This document shows positions 52,012-56,458 of a stretch of DNA of 64,000 bases, piece after piece; positions within the stretch are counted from its first letter, which is position 1; the number at the start of each line of letters is the position of its first letter. The position numbers and the translations under genes are program-made. The DNA is taken from the NCBI GenBank assembly GCA_029561455.1, contig JAKQIY010000041.1, positions 248,001 to 312,000 on the forward strand, read 5' to 3'. The notes under the pieces are model-generated. The model worked only from the letters and a program-made list of their open reading frames with translations. It did not search any database and was not told where the DNA came from. Origin of the DNA: a bacterium (lineage in GTDB: Bacteria > Zhuqueibacterota > Zhuqueibacteria > Residuimicrobiales > Krinioviventaceae).

Positions 52012-52112
52012 GCCCGGAGAAATGGCGCTCTAAAAAAATTCTTGTTCTGAACTCTATTTTTCTTATATTCATTATCCTGCATTCGTTGAATTGATTAATA
52101 AAGGAAATGACT

Positions 52113-53468
52113 ATGGAACAATTGAACCGACGCAAGTTTTTGGGAATGACCGCCGCCGCCTCCACATTTATGATCGTGCCGCGCCATGTGCTGGGTGGGC
52201 CAAAATTTGTCGCCCCCAGCGACAAGGTGAACATCGCCGGTATCGGCGTGGGCGGACAAGGCTGGGCCGATTTACGGGCCGTAAGAGAACAAAACAATAT
52301 TGTCGCCCTGTGCGATGTGGACTGGAACCGGGCTGCCGAAGCGTTCCAAAGATTCCCAAAAGCCGCTAAATACAAAGATTTCCGGGTTATGCTGGAAAAA
52401 CAAAAAGATATCGACGCCGTTATTGTCGCGACGCCCGATCACGTTCATGCCGTAGCAACCATGGCGGCGATTCAGGCCGGCAAACATGTGTATACGGAAA
52501 AACCGCTGACCTATACGATCAAAGAGGCGCAGATGCTGCTTGAAGCGGCGCGTACCACCGGCGTGGCAACCATGATGGGCAACCAGGGTCACGCTATGGA
52601 AGAGGCGCGGCTGCTGTGCGAATGGATTTGGGACGGCGCGATCGGCCCCATCCGCGAAGTACACGCCTGGACGCCGCACCCGGTGTGGCCGCAGGGCATG
52701 GACAAACCCACAGATATACCGCCGGTTCCCGATACTCTGGACTGGGACTTGTGGCTCGGCCCGGCGCCGTATCGGCCGTACCATCCCGCTTATTTACCCA
52801 TGCTGTGGCGCGGCTGGTGGGATTTCGGCACCGGCGGGCTCGGCGATATGGGCTGCCATATTTTCGATCCCATTGTCTGGGCGCTCAAACTGGGTCAACC
52901 CGAATCCGTTGAAGCCAGCGCGTCTATTTTTGTCCGCGAAGCGCTGAACTGGGACAAGGTACGCAATACCGAAAGTTACCCGCAGGCTTCGATCGTGTAT
53001 TACCATTTTCCGGCGCGCGGCGATATGCCGCCGGTCAAACTCACCTGGTACGACGGCGGCCTGATGCCGGAAACCCCGGTGGAACTGGAACCCGGCCGCA
53101 GAATGGGCGATCAGTTTGGCGGCGTCTTGTACATCGGCGAAAAGGGCAAAATATTGACCGGGTCGCACGGCGCCCGCGGTGTGCGCATTATTCCCGAAAC
53201 GAAAATGCAGGAATACCAGCGTCCGCCCAAAACCCTGCCGCGTTCAGTGGGTCATCACCAGGAATGGATCGAGGCCTGCAAAGGCGGCGCGCCGGGCGGC
53301 ACTAACTTTGAGTATTCCGTACCGCTAACCGAGATGGTGCTGCTGGGCAATATTGCCCTGCGAACCGGCAAAAGACTGCAATGGGATGGCGTAAATAAAC
53401 GTTTTACCAATGACGAGGATGCCAACCAATACCTGCACCGGGAATACCGGCAAGGGTGGACGTTGTAA
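52113..53468 (+). CDS. Tat-exported Gfo/Idh/MocA-family oxidoreductase
   Basis: About 451 residues. A twin-arginine signal (NRRKFLGMTAAASTFMIVP) precedes the NAD(P)-binding Rossmann domain (VNIAGIGVGGQGWADL, ALCDVDWNRA, VIVATPDHVHAVATMAAIQAGKHVYTEKPLTY with the EKP lysine) and the C-terminal alpha/beta domain with GLGDMGCHIFDPIVWAL containing the D-x3-H motif of the family. Exported relatives are abundant in planctomycete- and Bacteroidetes-like genomes, and act on sugars or glycan-derived polyols. I chose ATG 52113 since AAGGA is one base from ATG 52107 but seven from this one. The AT-rich island begins immediately after its stop codon. Confidence 0.9.
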   Translation: MEQLNRRKFLGMTAAASTFMIVPRHVLGGPKFVAPSDKVNIAGIGVGGQGWADLRAVREQNNIVALCDVDWNRAAEAFQRFPKAAKYKDFRVMLEKQKDIDAVIVATPDHVHAVATMAAIQAGKHVYTEKPLTYTIKEAQMLLEAARTTGVATMMGNQGHAMEEARLLCEWIWDGAIGPIREVHAWTPHPVWPQGMDKPTDIPPVPDTLDWDLWLGPAPYRPYHPAYLPMLWRGWWDFGTGGLGDMGCHIFDPIVWALKLGQPESVEASASIFVREALNWDKVRNTESYPQASIVYYHFPARGDMPPVKLTWYDGGLMPETPVELEPGRRMGDQFGGVLYIGEKGKILTGSHGARGVRIIPETKMQEYQRPPKTLPRSVGHHQEWIEACKGGAPGGTNFEYSVPLTEMVLLGNIALRTGKRLQWDGVNKRFTNDEDANQYLHREYRQGWTL

Positions 53469-53880
53469 GAGTTATTATAATTATAAATTTAAGGATTCAT
53501 CAATTTAATTAAAAATGCTATTGAGTTTTATAATTACTTAAATCTAATAATAACACAATAGTTAATTAAATTCTAAGAAATAAAACTTACCAAGTTTTTG
53601 TTGTTTTTTACAAAAGGAATTTATAACTTTATAATATAAAAGAAATATTTAGTGACTTCCCAATATTATTATATACTTTACTACAATTGCATATTATTAA
53701 AGGCATTATTTTTGCAGCTTGTTTTTTTGTTATGAATTATGCATATACAATTAAACAATTTATTAAAAATAATTAATTTTATGTAAGAAATGTACGTATT
53801 TTATAGTAATATCTATGTAACAAAATTTAAAAAAGTACATATAAATAATAAAAAATAAATATTCAGACAATAAATTTCTT
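53469..53880. other. AT-rich leader of the foreign-looking island with inverted repeat
   Basis: 412 bp of very AT-rich DNA after the Gfo/Idh stop. An inverted repeat AATTTAATTAA (53502-53512) with TTAATTAAATT (53562-53572), extended inside by CTATTG/CAATAG, could fold into a hairpin. The 9-mer AGTTATTAT occurs at 53470-53478 and again at 55655-55663 at the other end of the island. No gene is seen; a promoter for the cassette must lie here. Confidence 0.5.
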
Positions 53881-54552
53881 ATGGCAGAGCATAATCTTAT
53901 TTATAATAAGAATTTAGATGAAATTACTTCTTCGATTGTTTTTTTGACTGATGAAATCGGTGTTTATCATTATAATAAATTAACATATTTATTTGAATAT
54001 TTTTTTATAAAAAATTTCGGTTTCAGATATACAAAAGAAAAATTTTTAAAATACCCACATGGACCAGTTATTTCAAATTATAAAAATCAAATTCATCGAT
54101 TATATAAAAATGGTATTATAAATGTAAATTGTGATGAATTAAATAAAAAGAGAACAGTCGATGATTATTTATATAAAAAAATTATTATTTCAAAAACAGA
54201 TTTAACTATAAGTAATATAATAACTAATAGTGAAATTTTTAATTTTATTGAAATGATAATTGAAAAATTTGCTAGACTCACTACTGATGAATTAGAAAAT
54301 ATAATATATCAAACAACCCCAATAAAAAATTATCTTACCTTACAAGAGAATAATTATAGAAAAAAAATTGGAGGTTATATATTCCCAGATTGCATTAGAT
54401 TAAAGGATTATAAAGATATTGTTGTGAAAGGAAGAGAACTTGCTTTGAAACATTCACTAAAATATCCCCAAATTGATATTGAATTGCATAAAGACCTAGC
54501 AATAGAGTTAGCTTATATGAGCAATTTGAGACCAAAATTATGTGCATTCTAA
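53881..54552 (+). CDS. Panacea/SocA-like protein, putative antitoxin
   Basis: A 223-residue lysine/isoleucine-rich protein. The N-terminal half matches the Panacea (SocA-like, DUF4065) pattern: YHYNKLTYLFEYFFIKNFGFRYTKEKF followed by KYPHGPV (PHGPV at 59-63) and SNYKNQIHRLYKNGII. Panacea proteins act as antitoxins that neutralise diverse toxins in PanAT systems, and SocA is a ClpXP adaptor-type antitoxin. The C-terminal half (about 130-223) is not recognised. Its end overlaps the next gene by 13 bases. No good ribosome site precedes the ATG at 53881. Codons are strongly AT-biased (AAA, ATA, TTA, AGA), unlike the flanking genes. Antitoxin role is inference from domain and gene order. Confidence 0.62.
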   Translation: MAEHNLIYNKNLDEITSSIVFLTDEIGVYHYNKLTYLFEYFFIKNFGFRYTKEKFLKYPHGPVISNYKNQIHRLYKNGIINVNCDELNKKRTVDDYLYKKIIISKTDLTISNIITNSEIFNFIEMIIEKFARLTTDELENIIYQTTPIKNYLTLQENNYRKKIGGYIFPDCIRLKDYKDIVVKGRELALKHSLKYPQIDIELHKDLAIELAYMSNLRPKLCAF

Positions 54553-54983
54553 AACAGCAATTATTATCAAAATACCCTCCACAACCTCGAGAAGTTTGGC
54601 AAGTCGATGATCTTGAATTAAGGTTAGAAGATCCAAGTAGAAAAAATAAATATAAAAGGCCAGTATTAATTTTATCTTGTAAAGAACTATTAAAACCTGG
54701 TATAACTATAATAAATGTAATCCCTTTTGCTACTATAAAATCAGGTTATTCTTTTGATAAATTTACAATACCAATTAAAAATGGATTTATTGGTCCAAGT
54801 AATAATTTTAAAGTAAATAATACATCTGCTGCTCTAATTAGATTTTATCAACCTATTGATATTAAATTTTTTGTTGAAAAGTGTGGAGAATTATCTGAAG
54901 AGATATATTATGCAATTAGAAGAAGTTTGTGTGAAAATGTGATAGGTCAAAAAATAAATGATTATAATTTTAAAATAAACTAA
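54540..54983 (+). CDS. PemK/MazF-like protein, putative toxin
   Basis: A 147-residue basic protein whose layout resembles MazF/PemK ribonuclease toxins: a start of REVWQVDDLELRLEDP, the loop KNKYKRPVLILSCKELL (the R-P-V-hydrophobic-S step), strand ITIINVIPFATIKSG (the V-x-P-x-T/A-like step), and a late SAALIRFYQPIDIKFFVEKCGELSEEIYYAIRRSL, which matches the S-x-x-hydrophobic and G-x-L-S-x-E ends of the family. The loop before KRP is longer than usual and the C-terminus runs on for about 15 residues. It overlaps the Panacea-like gene by 13 bases and precedes the DCD-like gene by 16, so the three are likely co-translated. RNase activity is not shown. Confidence 0.6.
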   Translation: MCILKQQLLSKYPPQPREVWQVDDLELRLEDPSRKNKYKRPVLILSCKELLKPGITIINVIPFATIKSGYSFDKFTIPIKNGFIGPSNNFKVNNTSAALIRFYQPIDIKFFVEKCGELSEEIYYAIRRSLCENVIGQKINDYNFKIN

Positions 54984-54999
54984 AGTAAAAGGGGAAAAT

Positions 55000-55656
55000 A
55001 TGATTTTAAATGATAAACAAATTTATGAAGCTGTTCAAAACAATGATATTATTATTAAACCATTTGATGAAAAACAAATACAGGGCGCAACTTATGACTT
55101 TAGAGTCGGTGAACAAGGAGCTACTACTACTACTAAAAAACTTGTAAATATAAAGGAAAATGGTTATATAATAATAAGTCCTGGGGATTTTGGTGTTATT
55201 ACTGTATTAGAAGAAATAAAACTTAGTCTTCAATTTTGTGGCAGATTCGGTTTACGATCTAAATATGCACGAAAAGGGCTATTAGCAACAACTGGCCCTC
55301 AAATTGATCCAGGTTATCATGGAAGATTAATTATTGGTGTTACTAATCTTACTCCTAAGCCAATAACATTATCTTATAAGGATGATTTTGTTACTTTAGA
55401 GTTTCATCGTTTAGAGCAACCATCTTCCAAACCATATATCGGTCCATTTCAAAATAAATTAGAATTAGGTGCAGAGGAAATTGAATTTATTACTGAATCT
55501 AATGGTATGGCATTATCTGAAGTATTAACAACATTGCGCTCTTTAAGTGAAAATGTCGGTGCTTTATCTAAAGATGTAAAAAATTTAAAGTGGATACTTC
55601 CATTAATAGTAGGTTTTGGAATTACTATAATAGCAATATTAGTTGCAATTAAGTAG
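55000..55656 (+). CDS. dCTP deaminase-fold protein with C-terminal membrane anchor, catalytic Glu missing
   Basis: A 218-residue protein. Residues 1-150 follow the dCTP deaminase/dUTPase trimer fold: MILNDKQIYEAV, IIKPFDEKQIQGATYDFRVG, ISPGDFGVITVLEEIKL, GLRSKYARKGLL (86-91 match RSSLAR of E. coli Dcd), IDPGYHGRL. Where E. coli Dcd has Glu138 (VLEF) this protein has Gly113 (IIGV), so deaminase chemistry is doubtful although Ser87 and Arg91 are kept. After a linker with coiled-coil-like heptads (165-195) comes a single TM helix (WILPLIVGFGITIIAILVAI, 198-217). A GGGGA site precedes the ATG. It may bind a nucleotide at the membrane as a sensor. Third gene of the AT-rich cassette. Confidence 0.68.
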   Translation: MILNDKQIYEAVQNNDIIIKPFDEKQIQGATYDFRVGEQGATTTTKKLVNIKENGYIIISPGDFGVITVLEEIKLSLQFCGRFGLRSKYARKGLLATTGPQIDPGYHGRLIIGVTNLTPKPITLSYKDDFVTLEFHRLEQPSSKPYIGPFQNKLELGAEEIEFITESNGMALSEVLTTLRSLSENVGALSKDVKNLKWILPLIVGFGITIIAILVAIK

Positions 55657-55699
55657 TTATTATCCTTAAAGTAATCATATAAAGTTAAGTTAAAATTTT

Positions 55700-56458
55700 A
55701 TGCCCCACCAACCCGACTGGGATTTTTATAATGTCGAAATGGATGACAAATCCGCTTCGGTGATGCTGGACCTAGCGTTGGCGCGCGTTGCTCCCATAGC
55801 GGATAAACCCCGTATGTTATGGATACGGGTAACACTTTTACAGCCGGATGCCGATGGGTTAGTGCAAAAAGAGGAACTGGATCGGCTGGTCGAACTGGAA
55901 CAGGATATTGTCGCCCGCATCAGTCAAAATCTCGAGGGAGTACTGGCCGGGAAAGTTACCGCTGCGGGAATACGGGATTTTTACTTTTATTGCAGCAGCA
56001 GTGGTGATTTTGATTCTACGTTTACTGAAATAAAAAAACATCATCAGGAATACGAGTTTGCCGGCGACGCCAATTCCGACCCGGAGTGGCGGATTTTCTG
56101 GCAAGTGTTGTATCCTTCCGAAACATATATGCATATCATCCAGAACCGGCGGATTTTACGCAAGCTAAAAGAGTACGGCGACAAGCATACCAAACCGCGC
56201 AAGGTGGATCACTGGTTCTATTTTCAAAACGATATGGATGTGCAAAAATTTGTCACCCGTGTGGAACAACGCGGCTTTTTTATGGAAGGTAGCCAAGTCC
56301 TGCCAATCAAACCGGATTACCCCATCCAGGTCAATGTTTCCCGCGTGGACAATGTGAATGAGGATTATATCAATCAACTGACGGACAGCTTGCTGCAACT
56401 CGCTGAAGAATGCAACGGCCATTATGACGGCTGGGAGACGGTGGTGGTTAAGGGGTGA
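55700..56458 (+). CDS. DUF695 plus RraB-like domain protein
   Basis: A 252-residue cytoplasmic protein. The N-terminal 130 residues match the DUF695 pattern (WDFYNVEMDDKSASVMLDLAL, then PRMLWIRVTLLQPDADGL). The last 100 residues match the RraB/ribonuclease E inhibitor family: DHWFYFQNDMDVQKFVTRVEQRGFF and VDNVNEDYINQLTDSLLQLAEE with the terminal GHYDGWETVV. RraB regulates RNase E in E. coli; here no RNase E is seen. The gene returns to the normal base composition of the chromosome after the AT-rich island and has no clear ribosome site. Function is not known for this fusion. Confidence 0.78.
   Translation: MPHQPDWDFYNVEMDDKSASVMLDLALARVAPIADKPRMLWIRVTLLQPDADGLVQKEELDRLVELEQDIVARISQNLEGVLAGKVTAAGIRDFYFYCSSSGDFDSTFTEIKKHHQEYEFAGDANSDPEWRIFWQVLYPSETYMHIIQNRRILRKLKEYGDKHTKPRKVDHWFYFQNDMDVQKFVTRVEQRGFFMEGSQVLPIKPDYPIQVNVSRVDNVNEDYINQLTDSLLQLAEECNGHYDGWETVVVKG

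Follow-up and report, generated by a model that had tools for sequence, protein, structure and literature searches.

Toxin-antitoxin modules of the PanAT kind pair a Panacea-domain antitoxin with a small toxin. In a 2022 study (PMC8832971), PemK-type toxins are among the listed Panacea partners, and occasional or rare third genes, nucleotide-modifying enzymes included, are reported beside PanAT pairs. The dUTPase domain appears in a separate list of predicted, untested defense domains (PMC13092281). Here we describe a locus at which all three elements meet: a Panacea gene, a PemK/MazF-like gene and a gene for a dUTPase-like protein follow one another in an AT-rich segment of bacterial DNA. The analysis covered a stretch of 64,000 nucleotides (the window), and the features of the locus are collected in Table 1. 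Our preferred explanation, which we regard as likely, is that a horizontally acquired cassette combines a PanAT-type toxin-antitoxin module (type II, two genes) with an independent dUTPase-like cargo gene. The three genes look like neighbors in one imported cassette, not like a new three-part defense system.

Table 1. Features of the locus, in window positions.
Feature	Position	Strand	Remarks
MocA-type oxidoreductase gene	52107-53468		upstream flank of the insert
AT-rich insert	53469-55699	.	outer limits; lies between the MocA-type oxidoreductase and DUF695-RraB genes
Best sigma-70-like promoter match (TTTACA-17-TATAAT)	53607-53635	+	upstream of gene 1; consensus match only
Gene 1, Panacea-domain (SocA-like) protein	53881-54552	+	223 aa; predicted antitoxin (PanA); PF13274
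Gene 2, PemK/MazF-like protein	54540-54983	+	147 aa; predicted RNase toxin (PanT); PF02452 below cut-off
Gene 3, DCD-fold dUTPase-like protein with predicted tail anchor	55000-55656	+	218 aa; PF22769
Predicted C-terminal transmembrane helix of gene 3	55594-55650	+	residues 199-217; Kyte-Doolittle
DUF695-RraB gene	55700-56458		downstream flank of the insert

Three co-directional genes in an AT-rich insert

The original prediction described three co-directional genes in AT-rich DNA between GC-balanced genes, and both the reading frames and the base composition were confirmed. Each of the three genes has a family match; the first two share 13 bp (54540-54552), and 16 bp lie between genes 2 and 3. 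The GC content of genes 1, 2 and 3 is 0.223, 0.252 and 0.301, respectively, compared with 0.49-0.58 in the flanking genes. It is 0.165 in the 412-bp stretch upstream of gene 1 and 0.14-0.30 in the insert overall. At third codon positions the values are 0.129, 0.095 and 0.123, as against 0.55-0.70 in the flanking genes. In the nearest sequenced relative, which belongs to the same genus (G001), orthologs of the two flanking genes (82% identical for the oxidoreductase and 45% for the DUF695-RraB protein) sit next to each other on contig 157, where the matched stretches are 91 bp apart, and the roughly 2.2 kb found in the window is therefore an insert. Three long reading frames with family matches in DNA of 17-30% GC, together with an empty site in the relative, are beyond chance.

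Because their third-position GC is equally extreme (10-13%), genes 1-3 probably came from a single AT-rich source as one imported unit, which the empty site also supports. The 16-bp gap, the good ribosome site before gene 3 (AGGGGA) and the common third-position composition further suggest that the three are probably transcribed together and probably shared a donor. In the region upstream of gene 1, the count of sigma-70-like promoter matches is not above that of shuffled sequences. Near the insert ends there are a direct repeat of 9 bp (53470/55655) and an inverted repeat of equal length, which are expected in ∼5% and ∼3%, respectively, of random pairs in such AT-rich DNA. Since both fall within chance, no target duplication is claimed. 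The reading-frame and family search of the window found no integrase, transposase or phage genes inside the insert, and no RNA families or tRNA genes were found anywhere in the window. In the gene that adjoins the insert downstream, an RraB (RNase E regulator) domain is fused to a DUF695 domain.

Genes 1 and 2 as a probable PanAT-type pair

The assignment of gene 1 to the Panacea family was borne out by the profile search (PF13274, E 6.8e-11, 43.5 bits with a cut-off of 25.7). Gene 2 had been called PemK/MazF-like; its own match to PemK (PF02452) is under the cut-off (E 8.6e-4, 19.9 bits with a cut-off of 23.1), and the relative described below, which is likewise paired with a Panacea gene, passes it. 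Among PDB entries, gene 2 aligns best with MazF3 (E 0.43, not significant alone), and in this weak alignment R40 falls on the conserved arginine of the MazF3 RPV motif and T65 on a threonine of its TTT stretch. The predicted structure model has a pLDDT of 36, too low for fold comparison. Gene 2 is best read as a divergent PemK/MazF-type protein, the fold of which we infer because the PemK score is below the cut-off and the model is of such low confidence.

The pair recurs in one other genome of the same class (G043), where the end of a Panacea gene overlaps by 4 bp the next gene, which encodes a 154-aa protein (locus L132). This protein passes the PemK threshold (4.8e-7, 30.4 bits) and is weakly similar to gene 2 (BLASTP E 0.003). 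Among the other Panacea loci found in 81 genomes of the phylum, only this one has a neighbor matching gene 2, and the overlapping arrangement of a Panacea gene and a small partner is thus kept in two species, the only two found. When gene 2 was searched by BLAST against 82 genomes from the phylum, it returned only itself. A two-row profile of gene 2 recovered only the G043 copy, which was itself used to build it, and gave chance matches only against the PDB. No relatives of genes 1 and 2 were found on plasmids or in IMG/VR, and none of gene 1 in phages. PADLOC returned no match for genes 1, 2 or 3 or the next gene, and membership of genes 1-3 in a known defense system was discarded on this basis. 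The host genome (G000) has three Panacea genes in all.

With the overlap here and its recurrence in the second species, the proposal that genes 1 and 2 form a toxin-antitoxin-type pair held up, and a PanAT-type module is the best reading of the two. In the likeliest mechanism, gene 1 would bind and neutralize gene 2. Its loss or titration, through stress, phage infection or loss of the DNA, would then allow gene 2 to cut mRNA and growth to stop. Such an action would keep the cassette in place and may also abort infection. The novelty that had been claimed for the toxin-antitoxin part did not hold, because the pairing of Panacea with a PemK-like protein is already on record (PMC8832971). With this pair, a sparsely sampled phylum supplies a further Panacea-PemK example.

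The surroundings of the second pair are worth recording. At L140:1700-5707, it adjoins a divergently oriented gene for a HerA-like ATPase (PADLOC HerA/mad8), which is overlapped by a gene without family matches, and this is possibly a HerA-nuclease defense locus.

Gene 3 as a probable tail-anchored dUTPase-like protein

In dCTP deaminases, the deamination catalyst is a glutamate (E138 in E. coli). Gene 3 had been described as DCD-like. As far as the fold is concerned, this stands (PF22769, E 3.1e-22, over the cut-off). The protein also scores 104.5 bits against the NCBI model for dCTP deaminase (TIGR02274, cut-off 92.8). In the structure model, the core is mostly above 85 pLDDT and matches DCD structures, and a long helix (170-217) is predicted at low confidence. 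The deaminase part of the assignment was not supported. Among solved structures, 9ln0 and 9ln3 (titled 'thermostable enzyme dUTPase P45') and 8y1w ('Thermococcus pacificus dUTPase complexed with dUMP') are its nearest relatives in both sequence and fold, and all rank ahead of every deaminase. Where the deaminases have their catalytic Glu, gene 3 has G113, 9ln0 and 8y1w have Met, and the relatives of gene 3 have Gly in nearly all cases and Cys once. R86, S87, R91 and D103 are invariant across the family, and the PYxGxYQ end is also kept. Gene 3 shares with dCTP deaminases the DCD fold but not the catalytic Glu, and with DCD-family dUTPases both the nearest structures and the Arg-Ser, Arg and Asp site residues.

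With Gly in place of the Glu and archaeal dUTPases as its closest structures, gene 3 is unlikely to be a dCTP deaminase. The SIRV1 protein keeps the Glu and is recorded as not deaminating dCTP, so the residue alone is no proof of deamination, and its loss argues against it. That the TIGR02274 annotation names such proteins dCTP deaminases despite the loss of the catalytic residue is a warning.

A membrane anchor was also part of the original prediction, and the C-terminal segment is indeed hydrophobic, with a mean Kyte-Doolittle value of 2.87 over 19 residues. The best reading of gene 3 is a tail-anchored DCD-fold dUTPase, as judged from its sequence and predicted structure. A C-terminal coiled coil and helix would anchor it, presumably as a trimer, to the membrane, near which it would hydrolyze dUTP to dUMP with no need of genes 1 and 2. 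No description of a tail-anchored dUTPase-like family of this kind was found in the literature.

The replacement of the deaminase Glu by Gly or, once, Cys could also mean that gene 3 is a catalytically dead nucleotide binder, acting only as a sensor or scaffold. A more distant family of plasmid proteins with a DCD domain and a tail (see below) has, besides the Glu, lost the equivalents of the Ser and Arg. We consider this unlikely: R86, S87, R91, D103 and the PYxGxYQ end have been retained throughout the gene 3 family, and two solved structures that lack the Glu bear dUTPase in their titles, one of them with dUMP bound.

Relatives of gene 3 stand apart from genes 1 and 2

The distribution of gene 3 was surveyed with exact peptide patterns over 84,980 species genomes and 2.9 million viral contigs, a search that misses diverged relatives. 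It returned 15 relatives, of which 12 come from genomes and 3 from phage contigs. Their hosts are Thermodesulfobacteriota, Acidobacteriota, Verrucomicrobiota, Neomarinimicrobiota, Planctomycetota, Pseudomonadota and one further bacterium. Where intact, they are 54-73% identical to gene 3; two (L036 and L037) look frameshifted and two (L031 and L039) are partial. The 12 intact sequences of the family, the one from the window included, form a single clade (support 94/97) apart from housekeeping DCDs.

The surroundings of these relatives show that the family is mobile. Two relatives (L025 and L027) lie in Mu-like phages (Gam, MuB-like, Gp27), between the early and lysis regions. IS1-type transposases adjoin two others (L028 and L030), and an IS1595 transposase is found at L026. 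At this last locus (L026:3851-9657), a phage large-terminase gene is apparently split by an insert that carries the gene 3 relative, pieces of the IS1595 transposase and other genes. In two Neomarinimicrobiota (L032:3992-5474 and L034:4001-5367), the gene 3 relative is followed by a gene for an S24-peptidase repressor (LexA/CI-like) in identical order and strand, with a tRNA-synthetase-like gene on the other flank.

Positions such as those in the Mu-like phages and beside the IS1 and IS1595 transposases raise the possibility that gene 3 is an accessory protein of phages or other elements (a moron), a sharper form of our preferred explanation. A membrane-held dUTPase would then keep uracil out of the DNA of the element or alter the dUTP of the host to the element's advantage, and the toxin-antitoxin pair would only stabilize the element. 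In line with this, the host genome has one ordinary DCD gene (C50:64772), the reading frame of which keeps the Glu, and no PF00692 dUTPase was found in it. On the other hand, the insert itself is free of integrase, transposase and phage genes, and the advantage of membrane tethering is left unexplained, so that we rate this sharper form as possible and rather less than probable.

At none of the 15 loci with a gene 3 relative does gene 1 or gene 2 lie alongside, with ∼3.9 kb or more of upstream sequence available at each locus. A Panacea gene is likewise beside none of the 15, and 3 of the 12 host genomes have one on another contig. Conversely, no relative of gene 3 was found in G043, the one other genome with a gene 1-2 pair. 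The occurrence of the pair without gene 3 and of gene 3 without the pair argues for the cargo reading.

The original prediction had proposed a three-gene system, in which a nucleotide-binding, membrane-tethered gene 3 product would sense phage-driven dNTP changes and release the toxin. Put more generally, gene 3 would be a nucleotide-bound regulator at the membrane, holding or releasing the Panacea-PemK pair as dUTP or other dNTP pools change during phage replication. The genes are indeed co-directional, tightly spaced and alike in composition. Phage dUTPases are known as signal proteins that bind the Stl repressor according to nucleotide state (PMC5593958), nucleotide-enzyme third genes adjoin some PanAT pairs (PMC8832971), and with a dUTPase domain among those computed as defensive (PMC13092281), gene 3 may have a defensive role. 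Against this, the trio was found together in no other genome surveyed, which is one half of the outcome that the original prediction had named as its refutation. The recurrent gene 1-2 pair does without gene 3, and most stand-alone copies match gene 3 at 65-73% identity, so that it bears no sign of adaptation to partners. Given the neighborhoods of the 15 relatives, we reject a conserved three-gene system, and release of the toxin by a dNTP-sensing gene 3 found no support. We therefore regard such a holding mechanism as very unlikely, and that the three genes cooperate at all, with a membrane-tethered dUTPase sensing dUTP or phage nucleotide traffic and thereby controlling a Panacea-restrained RNase toxin, as highly improbable; the survey of 15 gene 3 relatives and one other gene 1-2 pair leaves room for a rare functional trio.

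Proteins with a DCD domain and a C-terminal hydrophobic tail are also encoded on rhizobial and other alphaproteobacterial plasmids (L017:2917-3582, L018:2959-3777, L019:2983-3717, L021:2956-3651 and L022:2809-3594). Neither the deaminase Glu nor the Ser/Arg site residues remain in these proteins, which form a separate clade and were not counted as members of the gene 3 family. Their recurrent neighbors encode a uracil-DNA glycosylase, an ImmA/IrrE-type protease, a C1 peptidase, an NTP pyrophosphohydrolase and a base-hypermodification protein, and the loci look like a nucleotide- or uracil-based conflict system.

Comparison with known systems

Within the locus, gene 3 is the more useful lead: the compact protein is dUTPase-like, has a predicted membrane tail and is spread across several phyla and Mu-like phages. 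Should it prove to be an active dUTPase that is bound to the membrane and travels as independent cargo, the direct question would be what a mobile element gains from such an enzyme there.

Genes 1 and 2 resemble the PanAT modules described in PMC8832971 in that a Panacea gene overlaps a small toxin-like gene. They differ from them in that gene 2 is too diverged for the Pfam cut-off, and the main text of that study names no dUTPase or deaminase third gene like the one here. For the idea of a nucleotide sensor, the nearest model is staphylococcal phage dUTPase-Stl signaling (PMC5593958), in which a dUTPase-superfamily protein serves as a signal; unlike there, no Stl-like repressor or interaction of that type is seen at this locus. 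The dUTPase of SIRV1 (NP_666605.1) shares the DCD fold with gene 3, is ∼31-34% identical to it and is recorded as hydrolyzing dUTP and not deaminating dCTP, but it keeps the Glu and has no tail. The archaeal DCD-family dUTPases (8y1w and P45, 9ln0 and 9ln3) have chains of ∼155 residues that lack the C-terminal coiled coil and membrane helix, yet with 34% identity and a short form without the deaminase Glu they are the best match to gene 3.
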